Of a stretch of 64,000 nucleotides of DNA, positions 4,467-34,671 are shown piece after piece. The DNA is from Ignavibacteriota bacterium. GTDB taxonomy: Bacteria; Bacteroidota; Ignavibacteria; Ignavibacteriales; Ignavibacteriaceae. The position numbers and the translations under genes are program-made. Position 1 is the first letter of the stretch. Every line of letters starts with the position of its first letter. Under the pieces are notes generated by a model. It was not told the DNA's origin. It ran no database searches and saw only the letters and a list, made by a program, of their open reading frames with translations. Location of the stretch: NCBI GenBank assembly GCA_013285405.1, contig CP053446.1, positions 2,403,001-2,467,000 of the forward strand. The letters are read 5' to 3'.

Positions 4467-6059
4467 TTATACAGCGTGTTCGGCTGTTGGCAAAGTTATT
4501 TTAAATGTAGTTCCCTGGTTTGAAGTTTTTTCAACTTCAATATTTCCACCGTGATTAGTAATAATTCCGTAAGCAACTGGCAGCCCAAGTCCTGTACCGT
4601 TAGAATCTTCTTTAGTAGAATAAAATGGCTCAAAGATATGAGGTAAATCCTTATTCGAAATTCCGGTTCCTTCGTCTGCAACTTTTATTATTATGTTGTT
4701 TTGTTCGGGGACAATGCTGACGGTTATTTTTCCTCCATCAGGTGATGCTTCAATTGAGTTAATCAATAGAGCCATCAGTGCCTGCTGAATTTTGTCTGCA
4801 TTACAATAAATTAAAATCGGAACATCAGGATAATCCTTTATCAACTTTATTCCATGAATTTCGAGATGATGATTGATAACAGTAATGCTGTTATCTGTAA
4901 TTTTCAATAAGTCTTCTTTAGCATACTCATCTTGTTCAGAACGGGAAAATATCAACAAGTCTTTTACAATTTGACCGCATCGTGCAGCTTCGTGTGAGAT
5001 AATGTCAAGAAATTCAATCATTTTCTGATGCTCAGTATCTTTCTGAAGATTCTGTAATTTTTTGGATATCAGCTTGCTGTAATTTAAAATTCCTGCAAGC
5101 GGATTATTCAATTCATGAGCTACTGTGGCAGATAATTTTCCAAGCGAAGCCAGTTTTTCAATTTGATTGACCTGATCATAAATATTTTTCAGCTCTTTTG
5201 TTTTTTCATTCACTTTATCATTTAGTGTTTCAGACCAGTTTTTAATTTCTTTGTATGCCTCATTTAATTTGGTTGACATTTCATTAAACCGGTAAGCCAT
5301 TTGACCCAACTCGTTTTTAGAGTTGAGTTCAATTTTGTAATCTAAATTTCCATTACCAACTGCTTCTATACCGGCTCTGATTTTTTTAATCGGCTTATTA
5401 ACTAACTTTGTTATGAACAGATCAGTAAAAAAAGAAATGATAAGAACCAGAAACACTGAAACCAAAATTACTCTTGTCGTACTTTCTTCAATTATAGTAT
5501 CAAGCTCATCAAGAGTCACGCCTACATCAAGAACACCGAGAATATTTGTATCGGACGAATGAGCATGACAATCAGCATTTGAACAGTCAGGTTCATTTTG
5601 AATCGGATTAATCAAACCCAGTATTCTCTTATCATCTGAGTTTTTATAAATCCGGATTTTATCCTCGTTGGTTAAACTTTTTAAGGGAACAGAACTGTTA
5701 TGACATACAATGCAAGCATCATCTGTTAAATCAACCTGAGAGAGAATCTCTTCCGGTTTGGTAGAAAAAATTACTATACCAAGTTTGTTATAAATGCGGA
5801 TCTCTTCAACTCCAATCTCGGATCGAAGGGTATTTATAATCTGATGAACATCTTCCCGCCGATTTAAAAGCATTCCGTAGCGAGTAGATTTTTTAATTAT
5901 GTCACTGATGTTATAAGCACTCTGAAATCTCAGGTGAGTCAGATAACTATCAAGATTTTTTATAATGAAGTAAGTATAAACTGAGAGAATTACAACGAGG
6001 ATACACGAAATAGAAATGATGAGTCGAAAACTTAGTCTATTTAAAACCCCTATTTTCAT
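4467..6059 (-). CDS. Sensor histidine kinase with periplasmic haem-binding motifs
   Basis: 530 residues. The order is TM1 (about 12-32), a periplasmic sensor, TM2 (about 197-217), HAMP, a coiled coil, HisKA with HELNNPL (His near 312), and a HATPase with DEGTGIS and GTGLGL. The sensor holds CIVCH (near 115) and, about 45 residues later, CSNADCH, a CX4CH motif. This suggests one or two covalently bound c-type haems used to sense redox state or a gas. The neighbouring kinase at 13747 has the same arrangement. A 145-bp gap separates it from the upstream gene 6204-6935. Its partner is the sigma-54 activator immediately downstream. Haem attachment is inferred from the motifs only. Confidence 0.92.
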   Translation of the reverse strand: MKIGVLNRLSFRLIISISCILVVILSVYTYFIIKNLDSYLTHLRFQSAYNISDIIKKSTRYGMLLNRREDVHQIINTLRSEIGVEEIRIYNKLGIVIFSTKPEEILSQVDLTDDACIVCHNSSVPLKSLTNEDKIRIYKNSDDKRILGLINPIQNEPDCSNADCHAHSSDTNILGVLDVGVTLDELDTIIEESTTRVILVSVFLVLIISFFTDLFITKLVNKPIKKIRAGIEAVGNGNLDYKIELNSKNELGQMAYRFNEMSTKLNEAYKEIKNWSETLNDKVNEKTKELKNIYDQVNQIEKLASLGKLSATVAHELNNPLAGILNYSKLISKKLQNLQKDTEHQKMIEFLDIISHEAARCGQIVKDLLIFSRSEQDEYAKEDLLKITDNSITVINHHLEIHGIKLIKDYPDVPILIYCNADKIQQALMALLINSIEASPDGGKITVSIVPEQNNIIIKVADEGTGISNKDLPHIFEPFYSTKEDSNGTGLGLPVAYGIITNHGGNIEVEKTSNQGTTFKITLPTAEHAV

Positions 6060-6203
6060 AATTTTTTTAATCTAAGTGGTTTAAAGTTAGACAATACTTC
6101 AACGATTTACAATCTATTTCAAATGCACAAAGTAGTGAGAAAAAGGAATTGTGTTTTGGAGCAATTAAAAAAGCAAGATACTTATTAGCAAAATGATAAA
6201 ATC

Positions 6204-25165: not shown

Positions 25166-25557
25166 TCGGCTGTTCGTTCAATTCTTTATAACTGACTTAT
25201 TAATGTTATGTTACGGCAAGCCTTGTGCCATCATGGAAATATTATGGTATTGGAATACCGAGTTTTTTGAATCGATTTAGGGTAAAATTTACAGTATGTA
25301 TTCAAAAATCATAGCAAATCGCAATGTTTTTTTGCTGTTAGAAAATTTAACATTTGTAGTCAAAGCAAATGAACCACAGACCCACCTAATTTATTTAGAT
25401 AGGTGATGAGTTTTAAAATAAGATACTTTAGCGTCCGCAAATAATATAATGTACAACCTCTATTGATAAAGCAAAAGAAAGAAGATAAGTTACAGACGGG
25501 AAATAAAAGCAGAAAGAAAGCGGGAGAAAAACCTTTCAATCAGTGGAGTAAAACTTT
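25166..25557. other. Intergenic region without a recognisable gene
   Basis: AT-rich. It contains two short hairpins (GGTAT-TGGA-ATACC followed by GAGTTTTTT near 25246, and CACCTA ... TAGGTG near 25385) but no convincing ORF or RNA gene. Confidence 0.5.
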
Positions 25558-25620
25558 ATGAAAAGAAGTTTGGAAAAAAAAGAACTTGACAAACAAAACA
25601 AATTGAGTAAACTTTCACTA

Positions 25621-25648
25621 CTCACTACTCACTACTCACTACTCACTA
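25621..25648 (+). repeat. 7-bp tandem repeat (CTCACTA x4) at the start of a secreted-protein gene
   Basis: Four perfect CTCACTA units are flanked by a partial unit (CACTA, 25616-25620) and a decayed one (CTTACTT). Seven is not a multiple of three. The repeat lies between an ATG with a good ribosome site (GGAG 25545-25548, ATG 25558) and the main reading frame. With four units the ATG frame stops at TAG 25684-25686. With three units, or six, it reads into the long frame. Confidence 0.9.
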
Positions 25649-25669
25649 CTTACTTTTACTTTTTACCTA

Positions 25670-27745
25670 TTGCTTCTATCTTCTAGCGTTACCGCCCAAG
25701 TAATAATAAAAGAAAGAGTTGAAATAGAACCGTTAAAAATACCTGTATCGAACAATCCTACATTTAATATCGACACATCAATCTGTAATAAATTTGAATA
25801 TGATCCTGAAATAATTGTTACAGATGGAGATGATAAAACATATTCGGTATGGTATGGTGATTGTTCAGCCATCGGTTTTGGCGGATACAACGATTGTATT
25901 CACTTTGACTTTAATGATGATTACTGGATAGTAACAATAGAAGAAGGATTTGAATATGTTCAACCAAGGACAAGCTTCCTGGATTGTGATGGACCATATT
26001 CAGATGAGGGAGAAAATTTTTATATAGATTACAATTATTGCTTACATCTTGTTTTTAACAAACAGGGACCGGGGAATATGGCACAGGTAAAAATAAAATT
26101 TGCTAATAGTACAAAGGTTGCACATTATAGCTTTGAAGTTTACAGACCATTATTCCACATAACACCAACAGACACAATTGAGTTGATGGAATACGGAGAT
26201 TATGAAGTAGTAGATAATTATGAAGTTTTGAACCAATGCAACACATATTGGCCGTGGCTACCGGATACAGTATCAATAATCAAGGAGATAATACAGGGCA
26301 ATGAATATTGTCAGCTATGGAACTCAAACACAAATCAATATGGAACAACATTTATTGGTGGAGGAATATATATAGTTGCAAACGGAATAAGATCAGAGCA
26401 GGATGAAGAAGTAATAATAAGAATAAGCACAAGCGAATCAGGGATTGAGCCAATAAATTTACAATATAAAGTTAGGCCAGTTGAATTAGAAATCACAGCA
26501 ATACCATCGGTGTTGGCACCAGGAGATACAGCCACAATAATTATACAAAAGAAATATCAGGATGGCACTATAGAAGATTTTCCTGAATGGCAGGGATTTG
26601 AAATAGCTAAAGTTGAAGGATGCGCATTAGGGGAGATATTGGTTGGAGGAGAGAGCGGAGCATATTTTTATGATGTATTACAACCGATACAATTTGTAGT
26701 TGATAGCATAGCTGAGAACGGAACAGTAAAGTTGCAAATAGGTGTACCAAAATCTCCAAGTTTTGGTACTCGACCAGTTAAGCAGAAAAACACAAATACA
26801 AACCAAACTAATTTAGCAGATAAACAAAAACAAAGACAGCAAACACCACCGGCCGAAAACCCTATATTATATTGTTCCGCAGAAATATTTGAATCCCTGT
26901 TGAATAACGATTTTTATCTGGAAGTGGGGGATGGGTGTGACAAACCTGAATGGGCTTGTCCTGTTTCGATAAAACGTCCTAAGATTGATGTTAAAGAAAT
27001 TAATATGAGCAACTGTTTAGAGGATGAAAAAAATGATATAAAAAGTTTATGTACTGGTAAATATGGATTTTTTCATCCAATATATGATGGCCCGTTTTGG
27101 GAACCACAATTCACTGTAGAGCCTTATTTTGATAGTGTGAAAGGAATATGGCAGTTAAATTATAATTCAGATCCTATTTATATCAGAGCATACACAGTTT
27201 TCTGTCCTGAATGCGTACCTGAAAGTGGCATTATCAGAAGCTTGGATGATGTATGGAATAAAATTCCTGAAGATAAATTATGTAAAGCTCTGGAAGATTT
27301 CGAATTACAAAAGAAATATGGGGTAGATGTAGAATTTATAATTGAGGAACAAGTGATGGCACACGAGAGATTACATAAAACAGATTTTTTTACTGCCATA
27401 GCAAAGACCGTATATTATTATCCAGAAAATGATGTAGATAAATACAATACCACACTCCTAGATACAAAATACAAATGTAAAGATGCTCCTAATTACGATG
27501 TAGCAATTGATAAAATTCAAGTGTACCTGGATAATGTGTATCAAGAGTTTCAGAAGGATTTAAAAAAAGTTTATACATTTATAACAGGTAAAGATGAAAC
27601 AATAGAAAACGAAACTTATGAAACTGTTTCCCACGATTTATATGAAGTGCAAAGTATTATTCAAGATTATATTGATGAAATAAATAATCGTATTATAAGT
27701 ATTAATAAAAGCAGAACCGAAGAATTAAAAATAAAATGTAATTAA
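25670..27745 (+). CDS. Secreted protein with HEXXH motif, probably phase variable
   Basis: 691 residues counted from a TTG, but this start is unlikely. There is no ATG in frame before the conserved body, and the true start is probably ATG 25558, one repeat unit out of frame. Restored, the N-terminus would be a signal peptide ending in LLLLSSSVTAQ. The body has no named family that I recognise. Near residue 565 is HERLHKTDF, an HEXXH zinc-peptidase-like motif, which is HENAHGQDF in the truncated paralogue at 30680. The family could be a metalloprotease or a protein with a degenerate site. It heads a three-gene block duplicated downstream. Confidence 0.72.
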   Translation: MLLSSSVTAQVIIKERVEIEPLKIPVSNNPTFNIDTSICNKFEYDPEIIVTDGDDKTYSVWYGDCSAIGFGGYNDCIHFDFNDDYWIVTIEEGFEYVQPRTSFLDCDGPYSDEGENFYIDYNYCLHLVFNKQGPGNMAQVKIKFANSTKVAHYSFEVYRPLFHITPTDTIELMEYGDYEVVDNYEVLNQCNTYWPWLPDTVSIIKEIIQGNEYCQLWNSNTNQYGTTFIGGGIYIVANGIRSEQDEEVIIRISTSESGIEPINLQYKVRPVELEITAIPSVLAPGDTATIIIQKKYQDGTIEDFPEWQGFEIAKVEGCALGEILVGGESGAYFYDVLQPIQFVVDSIAENGTVKLQIGVPKSPSFGTRPVKQKNTNTNQTNLADKQKQRQQTPPAENPILYCSAEIFESLLNNDFYLEVGDGCDKPEWACPVSIKRPKIDVKEINMSNCLEDEKNDIKSLCTGKYGFFHPIYDGPFWEPQFTVEPYFDSVKGIWQLNYNSDPIYIRAYTVFCPECVPESGIIRSLDDVWNKIPEDKLCKALEDFELQKKYGVDVEFIIEEQVMAHERLHKTDFFTAIAKTVYYYPENDVDKYNTTLLDTKYKCKDAPNYDVAIDKIQVYLDNVYQEFQKDLKKVYTFITGKDETIENETYETVSHDLYEVQSIIQDYIDEINNRIISINKSRTEELKIKCN

Positions 27746-27762: not shown

Positions 27763-29688
27763 ATGTGTAATAGATTTTCAATTTTAGCAATATTTCTTAT
27801 TCTTCTAAGCATACAAATCAAAAGCCAGGAGATTGATGAGGAATTTAAACAAAAGATATTACTATATCTTTCAAGTGATAAAGGTTCAGTAGTGTGGGCT
27901 GGTGTAGATTATACGATACAATTCAAACTATACGAAGCTATACAAGTTTTAGAAAATATTATCTGGAAACAAGAAGTACCTATTCAACTTAGTATTCTAT
28001 GGGCAATGGCTTATTTAAATGCCCCGAATACACAGCAATTGGCTATAGCATTTATAGATTCCGTTGATTTTTACAATTCATCCAGATTCTTTGGGAGTGA
28101 AAATAAACTAAGCGCAAAAGCCCATGTAAATCAAGCTTTATTTTACATAAATGATTATTCTCAAGCTGACTATGTAATGCAGCAACTACGGGTAAAACCT
28201 TACGATGTTGAATCAATATGGTTATTACCAAACCTGATTAGAAATGTTCCCCAATATGAGAATGAAGCAAAAAGTATATTAATAAATGCAGCTAACAATT
28301 CTGAAGATTATAGAATTAGATTTAATGCAGTTCATCAGTTGGAAGAAGTTTATGGTGCCGAAATGATACCGATTTATATTAATTTCTTTAAAAATGTTGA
28401 AGAATCTGGTAAAGAATTTAGCTCTTCAAGAATTATTTCATTTGAGTTTCTCTGTAAGTATAATTATGATGGCTTAGAAAATTTAATAAAAGAGCAGATA
28501 TATAACGAACCTGCGGCTGTTTACAAAAGATATTTCATTGATACACTATTCAATCGCTATGGTAATCCTGAAAATTTAAATTATATAGTAAATTTTTATA
28601 ATTGGGAAACAGATTCATTAGCAAAAAGGTTTGTAAGTCATGCATTAGAGAATTTTACACCTAAAGAATTTCCTATGAATATAACATTGCCGGAAATGAT
28701 AGACAGTTTAAAAATTATAACAAATAAAACATTTGCATTTCAATGGATTGATAGTACTACTAAAAATTTACTTAATTACAATTTGGATAATGCAAAGACT
28801 AAAATATTAAACAGTGATTCTATATTCTGCGCAAATTATATAAAACAATATCAAGACTTAGTTAATTTTGAGTTTCAAGATACACTTAATACAACACCAG
28901 AATTTGTAACACTCGAAGGATGGCAATTTCTATATTATTATGCTCAGTACATTCTCGACAGACTTCCGGAACCGCAAGCAAACCCTAACTTACTTGTAAA
29001 CCTAAAGAACAGTTTTGGGGTGCAAATACCAGCAGGTAATGTAACGTACTATGAGTCCGCCACAAGCGGATGGAAAGATGCAGTAAACAACGGAGATGGA
29101 ACTTTTACAGTAATAACAACAAAATCAACAGTAAGCATAAGAATGTTCTACGAGTTTGCAAACCAAACTGTTCATAATGTTCCTGCACAAAACAACACTT
29201 ATACATTTACAACAGTAAACACTGCAGTTCAGTTAAAGAACAGTTCAGGAAATTTGATGCCTGCCCCTTCGGGTGATCAGGGTACAGTTCAATACTATGC
29301 TGATGCTTGGAGAACATTTGGCACAACAACAAACGGAGTTGCATACAAAGAACTTCTGCCAATCAATTACAGTTTTAGAATGACTTATGAATATATACCT
29401 AATGACAAACAGCAGGATATAAGCACAAACAGTACAGTTACATTCACAACAGTATTGTGTACATTAAAAGTAACCAATGCAAACAATCAGCCGTTAGCAG
29501 GTGCAAGTACAAAATATTACTCAACAGCGTGGAGAGATATCGGACTTACAAATGCAGAAGGAATAATAACAAAAGAACTTCTTCCAAAAAACTTAAGCTT
29601 CAGAGCTACGTATGGTAATGTTAGTCTTGATAAACAGCAGGATATTTCTGTAAATATACTTGTAGAGATTCAGTTAAATGTTCCGTAG
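27763..29688 (+). CDS. Secreted helical-repeat protein with three C-terminal beta repeats
   Basis: 641 residues with a signal peptide (ending IQIKSQ). The first 370 or so residues look like irregular HEAT-type alpha helices. The last 220 residues contain three repeats of about 75 residues with the pattern YY...AW(R/K) ... G...KELLP.(N)(Y/L)SFR.TY ... DKQQDIS. This module is 80-90 percent identical by eye to the one in the paralogue at 31935. The linker LDRLPEPQANPNLLVNLKNS is shared. The function is unknown. It follows the HEXXH gene by 17 bp, in a probable operon. Confidence 0.75.
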   Translation: MCNRFSILAIFLILLSIQIKSQEIDEEFKQKILLYLSSDKGSVVWAGVDYTIQFKLYEAIQVLENIIWKQEVPIQLSILWAMAYLNAPNTQQLAIAFIDSVDFYNSSRFFGSENKLSAKAHVNQALFYINDYSQADYVMQQLRVKPYDVESIWLLPNLIRNVPQYENEAKSILINAANNSEDYRIRFNAVHQLEEVYGAEMIPIYINFFKNVEESGKEFSSSRIISFEFLCKYNYDGLENLIKEQIYNEPAAVYKRYFIDTLFNRYGNPENLNYIVNFYNWETDSLAKRFVSHALENFTPKEFPMNITLPEMIDSLKIITNKTFAFQWIDSTTKNLLNYNLDNAKTKILNSDSIFCANYIKQYQDLVNFEFQDTLNTTPEFVTLEGWQFLYYYAQYILDRLPEPQANPNLLVNLKNSFGVQIPAGNVTYYESATSGWKDAVNNGDGTFTVITTKSTVSIRMFYEFANQTVHNVPAQNNTYTFTTVNTAVQLKNSSGNLMPAPSGDQGTVQYYADAWRTFGTTTNGVAYKELLPINYSFRMTYEYIPNDKQQDISTNSTVTFTTVLCTLKVTNANNQPLAGASTKYYSTAWRDIGLTNAEGIITKELLPKNLSFRATYGNVSLDKQQDISVNILVEIQLNVP

Positions 29689-29709
29689 GAATGTATAATT
29701 CATAATGAA

Positions 29710-29870
29710 TAATTAACAATTAAAAATTAACAATTAAGAATTAACAATGAAAAATTAAAAATGAAGAAGAAGGTTCTGATTCATAGCTCCGTAGGAGCGA
29801 CATATTTATAGAAACAGAAAAAACAAAAAAAATCAAGTCCCGTCAGGGACGACATAGATGCAGAGGTAAG
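29710..29870 (+). repeat. Spacer with short palindromes, duplicated at 33840-34000
   Basis: Contains repeated AATTAACAATTAAAAATTAACAATT sequence and two palindromic boxes (CTCCGTAGGAG and GTCCCGTCAGGGAC). The copy 4,130 bp downstream is nearly identical, more conserved than parts of the flanking genes. Confidence 0.8.
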
Positions 29871-29872
29871 AA

Positions 29873-30541
29873 ATGAAAATAAAAATTTTAATTATAGTAT
29901 TGGCAATAGCACATTTTTCATATTCACAAACCGTTTATGAAATTACACCCGGAACAAAAGGCAACGAAATAACATTGACGGTTGCAAATGTTTCAGAAAC
30001 AAATCCCGCAGAAAATGTTAAAGTAATGCCTCCCCAACCCCTCCAAATGAGGGGCTTTCAGGAAGAGCAAATTACATTTCACCAATCAGAACAAACGATT
30101 GAGAGGATAGAACCAGCAGCAGAAGCGGAAGTAACATTTACATTTGATATAAGCAGAAATGTTTCAATTACAAAGAAAGATACAATTGATTTTATGATAA
30201 CAGATGCAAACGGACTGATGATGACAAAGACATTCATCTTCAGTTACATTGGTCCGAAAGAATTCAAGCTTGAGCAGAATTATCCGAATCCATTTAATCC
30301 AGCAACAACGATACAGTATCAAATACCGGCCTCCCCAAACCCCTCCAAAGGAGGGGCTTTTGTATCATTAAAAATTTACGATATACTTGGCAGTGAAGTC
30401 GTAACATTAGTAAATGCAGAACAGCAGCCAGGATATTACGAAGTTCAGTTCAACGGAAGTAATCTTGCAAGTGGAATGTATGTTTATAGATTGCAGGCAG
30501 GAGAATACATTTCTACAAAGAAGATGTTGATGATTAAATGA
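29873..30541 (+). CDS. Small secreted protein with T9SS C-terminal sorting domain
   Basis: 222 residues: signal peptide (ending HFSYSQ), a beta-rich domain (about 20-130), and a type IX secretion sorting domain beginning [17 protein letters not shown] and ending KKMLMIK. The sorting domain is interrupted by about eight extra residues (PNPSKGGA) encoded by a palindromic DNA repeat (30330-30361). A second copy of that repeat at 30029-30058 encodes PPQPLQMRGF. Its paralogue at 34003 carries the same two insertions. It is the last gene of the duplicated block. Confidence 0.82.
   Translation: MKIKILIIVLAIAHFSYSQTVYEITPGTKGNEITLTVANVSETNPAENVKVMPPQPLQMRGFQEEQITFHQSEQTIERIEPAAEAEVTFTFDISRNVSITKKDTIDFMITDANGLMMTKTFIFSYIGPKEFKLEQNYPNPFNPATTIQYQIPASPNPSKGGAFVSLKIYDILGSEVVTLVNAEQQPGYYEVQFNGSNLASGMYVYRLQAGEYISTKKMLMIK
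30029..30058. repeat. Palindromic repeat inserted in a coding region
   Basis: CCTCCCCAACCCCTCC and GAGGGGCTTT arms lie in frame inside the gene at 29873. The same family recurs at 30330, 34159 and 34460, and in a related form at 17669. Confidence 0.75.
30330..30361. repeat. Palindromic repeat inserted in a T9SS sorting domain
   Basis: Arms CCCCTCC and GGAGGGG enclose AAA. The gene at 41695 reads directly [15 protein letters not shown] at this position, so the repeat adds about eight codons. Confidence 0.8.
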
Positions 30542-30679: not shown

Positions 30680-31918
30680 ATGATTAAAAAAAAATTTGAC
30701 GGAACACTCGAAGATTTTTCCCAATGGGATAGTTTTGAGATCGGAATGATAGAAGGATGCGATGCAGGATTGATTCTTAATAACGGAGCAATGGAAAATT
30801 ATTTTGCAGAAGTATATCAGCCGATATATTTTGTTGCAGCGAATGATTTAACGGAGACGGATACAGTAAAGGTAAGAGTAGGATTGATAGAAGGAGGAGG
30901 AAGCAGCAGACCTGTGAATAAAGGTGGAGAAGAAAAAGAAGCTATTATAACTAATCCAAATAAAAACAAAAAAGAACCTGAGCCGCTACCAATGAATCCA
31001 AGTACTTACTGTTTTCCAGAAAATTTCTGGACACCACACGATCTGGAGGGTGTTAGCAAGGTGGTGGTGGGGGATGGGTGTGAAGATTACATTTGCAACG
31101 AAGTAATTTTAAGACCATCATTCCGTTTTGAACATTTTCCAAATGGATCTTTTAATAATGATGCGTGTACAATTGAACAAAATAATGCATCTCAAGGACA
31201 AGTAGTATCCGGTGTTTTCTCCGTAATGTGGTCAGAACTTAACGATCTAAATTATTTCAATATTAATAATATTAATGCTTGTTATGTTCATAATTTTAAT
31301 ATTTGGAGATTTGGACACAAACTCCCATTATTTCCTTATTTCAAAACAATAATGGATGTCTGTATTACAAACGTTACTAATGCTGGACAAAAGCCATTAA
31401 ACCACATAAGCGAAATAACCACCGTTTATAATGACACTAAACTTTGTGATGCGAAAAAAGATTTAGAAGGACACAAATCATACCCATCAAAAGTACGAGC
31501 TGGAGGATATATTTTTCTTGAAGTTGAAATGGCACACGAAAATGCACACGGGCAGGATTTTCAGTGGGTCATAGATAGTTTGCAAAATGCTTTCCTTTAT
31601 CCAACATTAGATTTGTTGGAAGTAACCTGTGGAAGTTATGATCAAGAAAATAAAAAAGCTAATAATCAGGAAAAGGCTAAACTAATTTATTTTAACTATT
31701 TACAGAAAATTGTCGCTGGAGAAACGGTTGGTGCCGTACGCACATATAATGGATTTGAGCAGAGATTAAAAATAGGATATGAAAACCATATAAATCAGAG
31801 TTTTATTATTAATGGACAAAAAGTCGATCACGAAAATTACATTAACGGTTTTCCGATAGTTACAAATAGAATCGATGTATTATTGAATGAGTTTGAAAAC
31901 ATTTGGGATTGTAATTAA
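30680..31918 (+). pseudogene. N-terminally truncated paralogue of the HEXXH secreted protein
   Basis: 412 codons similar to about residues 290-691 of the protein at 25670: DGTLEDFSQWDSFEIGMIEGCDAG here corresponds to DGTIEDFPEWQGFEIAKVEGCALG there. The HEXXH motif is HENAH. It begins 11 bp after a terminator, lacks a visible ribosome site, and has no signal peptide, so it is probably not secreted. It may be a 5'-deleted remnant created by the tandem duplication. The remaining frame is intact, so recent loss or retained function is possible. Confidence 0.6.
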
Positions 31919-31934: not shown

Positions 31935-33818
31935 ATGAAGATAACTATAATTTTATTGTTAACTATAATATTTAGTTTTCCACTATGTGCTCAGGAATTA
32001 ACGCAGCAAGAAAAGCAACGAATTATTGATAGTCTCGATAGTAATAATAATAGAGAAAATTACAATGCATTATTGAATGTCGAAAAATATAATATCGTTG
32101 AAGCGATCCCGAAATTAGAATCTAAAGCCCAAAACGGAGATTGCACTGCAATTTATTTAAGACTCTTACAAAAACTGGGTTCATATAATGTTCAGAGTCT
32201 AGCTCATATAGCTATTGATTCATCAAACAAATGTTATGACCCTGTTGAAACAAGATATGATTGTTCAAAAATATTAATTGAATTGGGAGATTACTCTGCT
32301 GCTGAATATATTATTGATTATTACAACAATAAAGCATCAAAATATTTCTTTGATATTACTTTAATTCCCAAGATCATTGATAATAGACCTGATCTGTTAC
32401 AACAATCAAAAACTGTTGTGTTTGATTATGCACAAAATTTCAGAGGCTCATCTTTTACAAGATATATAGCAAATGCAATAATAGCAGATAAATATCCTAA
32501 TGATGCTGTACCTGTTCTTGTTAATTCATTCAGGAACGAGCCGGACGATGCTTCAAGAATTTTATCACTTTGGTTATTATTTGTAATTGACTATTCTGAA
32601 CTTCCGGAGCTTATGAGAGAAAGGCTGGTTCAAGAACCTGTTCCTTCATATCGTTATATAATAGCTGATTCTTTATTAAAAGAATTTGGAACTCTACAAA
32701 ACTATCGGTTCGTAAAAGAATATGCAGTAAATGAATCTGATGAGGTAACCAGATCTCTGATAGAAAATGAAGTTGAAATATTTGTTCCAGTTCCACCAGA
32801 TTCTACAAAACTCACACTTGATTTATTAGATAACTTAATTAATTATGTAGATAGTGTTTTAACTTACACCTGGCTCGGCGATCTAACATTTTCAAACGAA
32901 CTTAAAAACATTTTAACCACTGCTAAAACAAACTTACAAAATGGCGATTCACTAACTTGCAGAGTTCAGGTAAAAACATTTCAGGATTTAGTAGATAATG
33001 TTTATAAAGATTCACTCAACTCAGATCCACGTTTTGTAACGATAGAAGGCTGGAAATTTCTTTACTGGAATGCTCAATACATTCTCGACAGACTTCCAGA
33101 GCCGCAAGCAAACCCAAACCTACTCGTAAACTTAAAGAACAGTTTGGGCAACCAAATAGAAGCAAGCAATGTAATGTATTATGAGTCCGCCACAAGCGGA
33201 TGGAAAGATGCAGTAAACAACGGAGACGGAACGTTTACAGTGATAACAACAAAACCAACAGTAAGCGTAAGAATGTTCTATGAATATGCAAATCAAACTG
33301 TTCATAATGTTACTGCACAAAACAATACTTACACTTTTATAACAGTAAACGCAGCGGTAGAGTTAAGAAACAGTTCAGGAAATTTAATGCCTGCCCCTTC
33401 GGGGGATCAGGGTACAGTTCAATACTATGCTGATGCTTGGAGAACATTTGGAACAACATCAAACGGAGTTGCATACAAAGAACTACTTCCAATCAATTAC
33501 AGTTTTAGAATGACTTACGAATATGTACCAAACGACAAACAGCAGGACATAAGCGTAAACAGCACAGTAACATTCGCAACAGTACTGTGTACATTAAAAG
33601 TAACCAATTTTAACAATCAGCCGCTTGCAGGTGCAAGTACAAAATATTACTCAACAGCTTGGCGAGATATCGGACTTACAAATTCAGAAGGAATAATAAC
33701 AAAAGAGCTTTTACCAAAGAACTTAAGCTTCAGAGCTACGTATGGTAATGTTAGTCTTGATAAACAGCAGGATATTTCTGTAAATATACTTGTAGAGATT
33801 CAGTTAAACGTTCCGTAG
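31935..33818 (+). CDS. Secreted helical-repeat protein with three C-terminal beta repeats (second copy)
   Basis: 627 residues with signal peptide (ending FPLCAQ). It is a paralogue of 27763-29688. The helical N-terminal part (about 20-375) is strongly diverged, but the C-terminal part after LDRLPEPQANPNLLVNLKNS is almost the same, with the three YY...AW...KELLP...SFR repeats. An AAAAGGAAA ribosome site precedes the ATG. The contrast between the two halves suggests gene conversion of the 3' part or selection for change in the helical part. Function unknown. Confidence 0.75.
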   Translation: MKITIILLLTIIFSFPLCAQELTQQEKQRIIDSLDSNNNRENYNALLNVEKYNIVEAIPKLESKAQNGDCTAIYLRLLQKLGSYNVQSLAHIAIDSSNKCYDPVETRYDCSKILIELGDYSAAEYIIDYYNNKASKYFFDITLIPKIIDNRPDLLQQSKTVVFDYAQNFRGSSFTRYIANAIIADKYPNDAVPVLVNSFRNEPDDASRILSLWLLFVIDYSELPELMRERLVQEPVPSYRYIIADSLLKEFGTLQNYRFVKEYAVNESDEVTRSLIENEVEIFVPVPPDSTKLTLDLLDNLINYVDSVLTYTWLGDLTFSNELKNILTTAKTNLQNGDSLTCRVQVKTFQDLVDNVYKDSLNSDPRFVTIEGWKFLYWNAQYILDRLPEPQANPNLLVNLKNSLGNQIEASNVMYYESATSGWKDAVNNGDGTFTVITTKPTVSVRMFYEYANQTVHNVTAQNNTYTFITVNAAVELRNSSGNLMPAPSGDQGTVQYYADAWRTFGTTSNGVAYKELLPINYSFRMTYEYVPNDKQQDISVNSTVTFATVLCTLKVTNFNNQPLAGASTKYYSTAWRDIGLTNSEGIITKELLPKNLSFRATYGNVSLDKQQDISVNILVEIQLNVP

Positions 33819-34002
33819 GAATGTATAATTCATAATGAATAATTAACAATTAAAAATTAACAATTAAGAATTTACAATGAAAAATTAAAAATGAAGATGA
33901 AGGTTCTGATTCATAGCTCCGTAGGAGCGACATATTTATAGAAACAGAAAAAACAAAAAAAATCAAGTCCCGTCAGGGACGACATAGATGCAGAGGTAAG
34001 AA

Positions 34003-34671
34003 ATGAAAATAAAAATTTTAATTATAGTATTGGCAATAACACATTATTCATTTTCACAAACCGTTTACGAAGTAACACCCGGAACAAAGGGAAATGAGTT
34101 AACACTAACGGTTGCAAATATTTCAGAAACAAATCCTGCAGAAAATGTTAAAGTAATGCCTCCTCAACTCCTACAAAGGAGGGGCTTTCAGGAAGAGCGA
34201 ATTACATTTCACCAATCAGAACAAACGATTGAGAGGATAGAACCAATAGCAGAAGCGGAAGTAACATTCACATTTGATATAAGCAGAAATGTTTCAATTA
34301 CAAAGAAAGATACAATTGATTTTATGATAACGGATGCAAACGGACTGATGATGACAAAGACATTCATCTTCAGTTACATTGGTCCGAAAGAATTCAAGCT
34401 TGAACAGAATTTCCCTAATCCGTTTAATCCAACAACAACGATACAGTATCAAATACCGGCCTCCCCAAACCCCTCCAAAGGAGGGGCTTTTGTATCATTA
34501 AAAATTTACGATATACTTGGCAGTGAAGTCGTAACATTAGTAAATGAAGAACAACAGCCTGGATATTATGAAGTTGAATTTAATGCTTCTCATTTAGCAA
34601 GTGGAATGTATGTGTACAGATTGCAAGCAGGAGAATACATTTCTACAAAGAAGATGTTGATGATTAAATGA
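34003..34671 (+). CDS. Small secreted protein with T9SS sorting domain (second copy)
   Basis: 222 residues, about 90 percent identical by eye to 29873-30541, with the same signal peptide and sorting domain (EQNFPNPFNPTTTI ... KKMLMIK). Both palindromic insertions are kept in the same positions (34159-34188 and 34460-34491), so they predate the duplication. It is the last gene of the second block. Confidence 0.82.
   Translation: MKIKILIIVLAITHYSFSQTVYEVTPGTKGNELTLTVANISETNPAENVKVMPPQLLQRRGFQEERITFHQSEQTIERIEPIAEAEVTFTFDISRNVSITKKDTIDFMITDANGLMMTKTFIFSYIGPKEFKLEQNFPNPFNPTTTIQYQIPASPNPSKGGAFVSLKIYDILGSEVVTLVNEEQQPGYYEVEFNASHLASGMYVYRLQAGEYISTKKMLMIK
34159..34188. repeat. Palindromic repeat inserted in a coding region (copy 2)
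   Basis: Same position as 30029-30058 in the paralogous gene, with a few substitutions in the left arm (TCCTCAACTCCTACAAAGG). Confidence 0.7.
34460..34491. repeat. Palindromic repeat inserted in a T9SS sorting domain (copy 2)
   Basis: Identical to 30330-30361; arms CCCCTCC and GGAGGGG. Confidence 0.8.

Follow-up and report, generated by a model that had tools for sequence, protein, structure and literature searches.

At the head of a secreted-protein gene in an Ignavibacteriota genome, we describe a tandem array of 7-bp units that lies between the start codon and the hydrophobic core of the signal peptide. The locus is probably a member of a multi-gene contingency family whose repeats control reading frame in the manner of the Neisseria opa genes, with the present copy in the off state. 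In the mechanism that we propose, transcription would start at the promoter-like element P1 and translation at ATG 25558, producing a short basic leader that would form the n-region of the signal peptide. The ribosome would then read through the array before reaching the hydrophobic core and the cleavage site, and slipped-strand mispairing that adds or removes a unit would move the signal peptide and the protein body into or out of frame. Because the unit length is not a multiple of three, each such change shifts the frame, and switching of this kind would be reversible within a population. The mechanism itself is known, while the lineage, the turnover of units and the gene family are new. Positions given below are those of the window, the whole stretch of 64,000 nucleotides that was analyzed.

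Anatomy of the locus

The start site named in the original prediction is present in the window: ATG 25558-25560 is preceded by GGAG (25545-25548) with a 9-nt spacer, and the frame that it opens crosses the repeat and then terminates, after 42 codons, at TAG 25684-25686 (Table 1). The four CTCACTA units that were reported first are found as exact copies at 25621-25648. The better register is five exact TCACTAC units (25615-25649) and a partial sixth reaching 25654 (TRF score 73), an array that begins 57 nt downstream of ATG 25558, the best candidate ATG. In four genomes, the leader copies have an element of the P1 type (TTGACA-N17-TAGGTT or TAAGTT) about 90 nt ahead of their ATG.

The long frame of gene A opens after TGA 25604 and ends at 27745, giving 712 codons from stop to stop and 691 from TTG 25670. 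It had been described as having no ATG of its own; neither ATG nor GTG occurs near its 5' end, and the sole candidate, TTG 25670, comes too late to start a signal peptide because it would leave only nine residues ahead of the mature protein. The stretch that separates the array from the signal-peptide core has no start codon, and only translation across the array can therefore yield a full signal peptide. The long frame is +1 relative to the ATG frame, and the removal of one 7-bp unit, or the addition of two, fuses the frames as had been calculated. The expectation that this fusion creates a signal peptide also holds: the peptide ends in ...LLTFTFYLLLLSSSVTAQ in the long frame and is followed by the conserved mature start QVIIKERVEI, which is kept in array-less family members that have clean ATG signal peptides. 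The off state assigned to this copy is predicted from frame arithmetic, the ATG and long frames being out of register.

Table 1. Features of the locus and its module (positions in the window)
Feature	Position	Strand	Basis
Promoter-like element P1 (TTGATA, 17 nt, TAAGTT)	25463..25491	+	Read by eye; putative function
Ribosome-binding site GGAG and start ATG 25558	25545..25560	+	Sequence reading; conservation of GTGGAGTAAAACTTTATG
Leader frame MKRSLEKKELDKQNKLSK..., 42 codons, to TAG 25684	25558..25686	+	Frame translation
Conserved TTGACA, possible second start (TTG, +1 frame) or -35 element	25586..25591	+	Comparison of copies
Gene A, long frame of secreted protein, C-terminal HExxH (HERLH)	25607..27745	+	ORF, family comparison
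Heptamer array, five TCACTAC and partial sixth	25615..25654	+	Sequence, TRF; similar flanks around three units in paralogue L136
Signal-peptide end in long frame (...LLTFTFYLLLLSSSVTAQ)	25650..25699	+	Mature start QVIIKERVEI also in array-less members
Gene B, 641 aa, own signal peptide, N-terminal part variable, C-terminal part conserved	27763..29688	+	ORF, comparison
Gene C, 222 aa, type IX secretion C-terminal sorting domain	29873..30541	+	Por_Secre_tail E=3.2e-9
Truncated second A gene, HENAH motif, no signal peptide or N-terminal part	30680..31918	+	ORF, domain comparison
B2, after truncated second A gene	31935-33818	+	
C2, after B2	34003-34671	+	

Arrays across the gene family

Three of the four full-length family members in the source genome have a perfect heptamer array at this exact place. 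To estimate the background rate, we sampled 400 kb at even spacing from this genome, a single contig of 3.86 Mb, and found one other perfect array of heptamers reaching 21 nt or more. Since such arrays are rare in the sample and yet present in three of four members, the array at the head of the gene is not there by chance. Three exact tandem copies of TCACTAC occur at only two places in the source genome, the window locus and the paralogue L136 at C1:2127862, which are 300 kb apart. L136 shares the 5' region, the ATG and the leader of the window copy (90% identity over 254 bp) and has three units compared to five; it too is out of frame, in the opposite direction, and four units would place this leader pair in frame. 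In a third member, L138, the heptamer ACCATCA occupies the same place and there is no in-frame ATG. The fourth, L137, has no array, and its clean ATG signal peptide (MQTIILIILFVSNILAQ) is followed by the mature start VVIKERIEI; this combination pins down the end of the signal peptide in the window gene. The three array copies of the source genome are all out of frame, and the array-less L137 is in frame.

Of 164 genomes from the order, 4 have the leader pattern GTGGAGTAAAACTTTATG, at 11 loci in total, and 16 of 80 genomes from the taxonomic family have a common 89-residue domain. A perfect tandem array lies shortly before the signal-peptide core in 14 members from six genomes, ending 38-86 nt before the mature start, and is absent from nine. 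Array-less members were counted among these nine if their start region could be read and the conserved mature motif was present; a few domain hits that were fragments, were cut by contig ends or had no mature motif were left out. The arrays are short (1-8 units; 15-54 nt) and are built from TCACTAC, ACCATCA, TTTCTCG, TTTCCGT or, in G023, the octamer TTCAATCA. The unit length is never a multiple of three, with a perfect period of 7 in 13 loci and of 8 in one. The peptides that the arrays encode differ (LLTTHYS, TINHQPS, RFSFLVS and IIQSFNHS) and some are hydrophilic, so peptide content is not what is kept; it seems to be unimportant, and length modulo three to be what matters.

We also considered whether the unit is a dispersed mobile repeat. 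At least 115 stretches of GTDB contigs, drawn from many phyla, contain exact arrays of four TCACTAC units, yet within the genomes of the family the tested units occur only at these genes, with the exception of one diverged array inside a glycosyltransferase gene, and this candidate was rejected. For example, three tandem TTTCTCG units occur in G069, G072 and G073 (two complete genomes and one draft) at these leaders only. A search for the leader in viral contigs gave no match.

Several further loci were recorded. At L139 (about 6054-6080; G000:C1:3547053-3547080), a diverged TCACTAC array lies in frame within a glycosyltransferase-like gene and adjoins other small repeats (CCCTTCGACTTCGCTCAGGGTGA) that are likewise read through in frame. 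A third copy in G072 is truncated by a contig end that falls within its array, and no join to the other end could be made. L160 (G095:C259) is an array-less relative with an in-frame TAA inside the signal peptide. L198 and L200 (G073, at about 383.7 kb and 2528.7 kb) have the leader, array and signal peptide and meet a stop soon after the mature start; beyond the stop at about 383.7 kb, the sequence encodes a C-terminal fragment containing HEKVH, an anatomy suggesting internal deletion or recombination between modules.

Unit number, reading frame and selection

Unit number varies between copies whose flanks do not. The clearest case is a pair in G072, in which 209 nt before the array and 80 nt after it are identical and the arrays have 8 and 4 units; one copy (G072_a) is in frame 0 and the other (G072_b) in frame 2. 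Copies G073_2514 and G073_2537 have 4 and 1 units with identical upstream flanks, and the G069 copies have 6 and 7 units with upstream flanks that are 96% identical. Together with the confinement of TTTCTCG to these leaders, these differences mark the array as the part that varies and link it to this gene family. Slippage is the probable cause of the changes. The frame moves with unit number, and one in-frame form is known: among the 14 array members, one is in frame 0 (G072_a), seven are in +1 and six in +2.

An in-frame ATG is present in nine of nine array-less members compared to one of 14 array members (Fisher p=1.2e-5, a descriptive value because members are not independent). The single in-frame copy in 14 is below the one third expected of free switching (binomial 0.027; the copies are not independent). 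That so few copies are in frame is consistent with a mostly-off repertoire, yet it is the main point in favor of rival explanations. Switching may be slow, given that the arrays have only 1-8 units. The four G073 copies are all in +1, and the arrays of two of them are exactly three units (21 bp) apart in length; in this genome, +1 read from an upstream TTG (see below) could be the working frame.

The long frames extend over 594-1111 codons and contain no stops, and dN/dS is mostly 0.2-0.3. Values were 0.21 for own_2127 and G073_2537 (514 codons; neither is in frame with its ATG), 0.20 for G072_b and G023 (445 codons; both in frame 2), and 0.18 for G073_2533 and G073_2514; the highest, 0.40-0.54, came from short or very close comparisons. 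Intact frames and low dN/dS indicate that purifying selection continues to act on genes whose ATG is out of frame, which is what one would expect if they are on in some cells. The arrangement of a contingency locus that had been read from the window alone is supported by comparison: a non-triplet array sits between the ATG and the signal-peptide core, paralogues with a common leader differ in unit number, array-less members are all in frame, unrelated 7- or 8-bp units occupy the same position elsewhere, and the downstream frame is intact and under selection in copies that would be off.

Alternative explanations

One alternative concerns the TTGACA that sits between the ATG and the array. This element resembles a -35 element as much as coding sequence, and it could be either a weak second start or a second promoter element. 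If it is a start, the locus would be a graded switch with three states, in which the ATG gives full expression in frame 0, the TTG gives weak expression in +1, and there is none in +2. Such a switch, which we consider less likely than not, refines the contingency-family explanation and does not oppose it. The TTG frame is open into the array in five genomes (G069, G072, G073, G071 and G023), six of the seven +1 array copies could use it (all four in G073, G069_C47 and G071_C112), and these six have signal-peptide-like starts when read from it. However, no ribosome-binding site precedes the TTG, and in the source genome its frame is closed, by TGA 25604 in the window copy.

If the TTGACA is instead a promoter element, the array would lie in a 5' untranslated region or beside a second promoter (TTGACA, 16 nt, TAnnnT), and its length would tune transcription or ribosome access as in Haemophilus hmw, with frame being incidental. 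The TTGACA is conserved just ahead of the array in array copies, and TCACTAC arrays at large lie mostly outside frames of at least 150 codons (72 of 119), several of them directly 5' of genes. We nevertheless find this account improbable: the -10 element is weak in several copies and, with no start available between the array and the core, a complete signal peptide must be translated across the array.

Alternatively, the array may be neutral and the genes that carry it may have lost their start, being pseudogenes or on the way to becoming so. Thirteen of the 14 array copies have no in-frame ATG, two G073 leader copies meet a stop just past the signal peptide, and one of the two A genes in the window is truncated. 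This decay, to which we assign little weight, is hard to reconcile with the long intact frames and the low dN/dS, found even between two out-of-frame copies, or with the retention across genera of a leader with a ribosome-binding site and ATG.

Errors of assembly or sequencing in unit number are very improbable, since arrays of 15-54 nt fit within single reads and out-of-frame copies that differ in unit steps recur in six genomes, four of them single-contig. Programmed ribosomal frameshifting, by which the protein would be made from the out-of-frame leader, would suit a conserved upstream frame that overlaps the long frame and was rejected as scarcely credible, because the copies call for opposite shifts: the window copy would need a +1 shift, L136 and G072_b a -1 shift, and G072_a no shift.

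Comparison with known systems and significance

Repeat-mediated frame switching is documented mainly in host-adapted pathogens. Our literature search combining Ignavibacteria and phase variation found no paper in the collection that it covered. In the Bacteroides group, a review describes recombinase-mediated switching (PMC11868660).

The contingency-family explanation has its closest parallel in the opa genes of Neisseria, a multi-copy surface-protein family with a CTCTT repeat in the leader-peptide region and copies in different frames at once (PMC3960869, PMC3745409), in which slipped-strand mispairing is the established cause of unit changes (PMC3960869). The family described here is likewise multi-copy, and each repeat-bearing copy has its own repeat in the signal-peptide region with a unit that is not a multiple of three. 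Unlike in opa, the units are of 7 or 8 bp, not the 5-bp CTCTT, and their sequence varies between genomes and between paralogues. The product is also not an Opa beta-barrel; the lineage has type IX sorting domains, and the present system is known from sequence alone. In Helicobacter pylori oipA, an outer-membrane protein gene, the 5' end carries a CT dinucleotide repeat whose slippage sets the frame (PMC10564699). A 5'-end repeat would likewise set frame here, whereas the oipA repeat is a dinucleotide in a single gene. In Haemophilus influenzae, heptanucleotide repeats before hmw1A and hmw2A tune the transcript level of secreted adhesins (PMC8262952, PMC2651432). The 7-bp unit, the paralogous secreted proteins and the promoter-like elements beside the repeat are shared with hmw, but the array here follows the predicted ATG and would set frame, whereas the hmw repeat precedes the gene. 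Heptamers (TAACTGA and others) are also scattered across phyla, in cyanobacteria, Beggiatoaceae and some Bacteroidetes, where they are mostly intergenic and often near starts, and among repeats of 5-11 nt the heptamers form the most frequent class in many bacteria, which counts against a contingency reading (PMC4679880). Unlike those heptamers, the arrays described here lie inside the predicted coding path and are restricted to one gene family.

We tentatively propose a wider interpretation, in which an environmental lineage bearing type IX secretion may possess a phase-variable, opa-like repertoire of secreted proteins whose C-terminal parts are exchangeable. The position and leader would be conserved, the repeat would have been replaced over time (by at least four unrelated 7- or 8-bp units), and two starts in two frames would provide three expression levels. 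If a family-wide switch operates in these uncultured and probably free-living relatives, stochastic surface variation also exists outside hosts and is perhaps directed against phages, predators or rivals. Because the position of the array is homologous and the units are not, the family would constitute a natural experiment on the birth and replacement of a contingency repeat. Annotation pipelines would be expected to miss these starts and to label the genes as truncated.

Module genes and their products

Gene A had been placed at the head of a secreted-protein module, and it is the first gene of a three-gene module, A-B-C, that is repeated in the source genome and its relatives. Gene B starts 17 nt after gene A, the gene order is the same in paralogous modules, and gene C is about 215 aa long across modules, with a type IX sorting domain. 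As in polymorphic toxin-like systems, a common N-terminal part is joined to exchangeable C-terminal domains, with HExxH-bearing and other types of C-terminal part on one N-terminal family. The HExxH motif is invariant in 12 A members whose similarity is otherwise low; other members have no HExxH. No Pfam family reached the cut-off for the A proteins, and the C-terminal domain had no Pfam or PDB sequence match. A 282-residue model of this domain (mean pLDDT 67.8) had no Foldseek match at E<=0.001, and the best structural match (VIA Z 4.9, rmsd 8.9, 133 aligned) was not convincing. From the HExxH motif alone, we would guess that the domain is metallopeptidase-like, and any role of the secreted product is likewise conjectural.

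The type of gene B tracks the C-terminal type of gene A (L137 and L138 compared to the window copy and L136): a B that contains TIG, or one similar to it, accompanies a non-HExxH A, and another type of B accompanies an HExxH A. By analogy, this pairing would be as in effector-partner pairs. In the second A gene, the domain match contains a TAG, and the B and C genes behind it look intact; together with B2 and C2, it resembles what may be an orphan C-terminal module. In each module of the window, the spacer from gene B to gene C contains imperfect AATTAAA-type repeats of period 7/14 (29704-29765 and 33834-33895), and the two stretches are near-identical. Both gene C copies also contain CCTCCCCAAACCCCTCCAAAGGAGGGGCTTTT (30330-30361 and 34460-34491), which is translated in frame within the type IX sorting domain and looks like a small inserted repeat.
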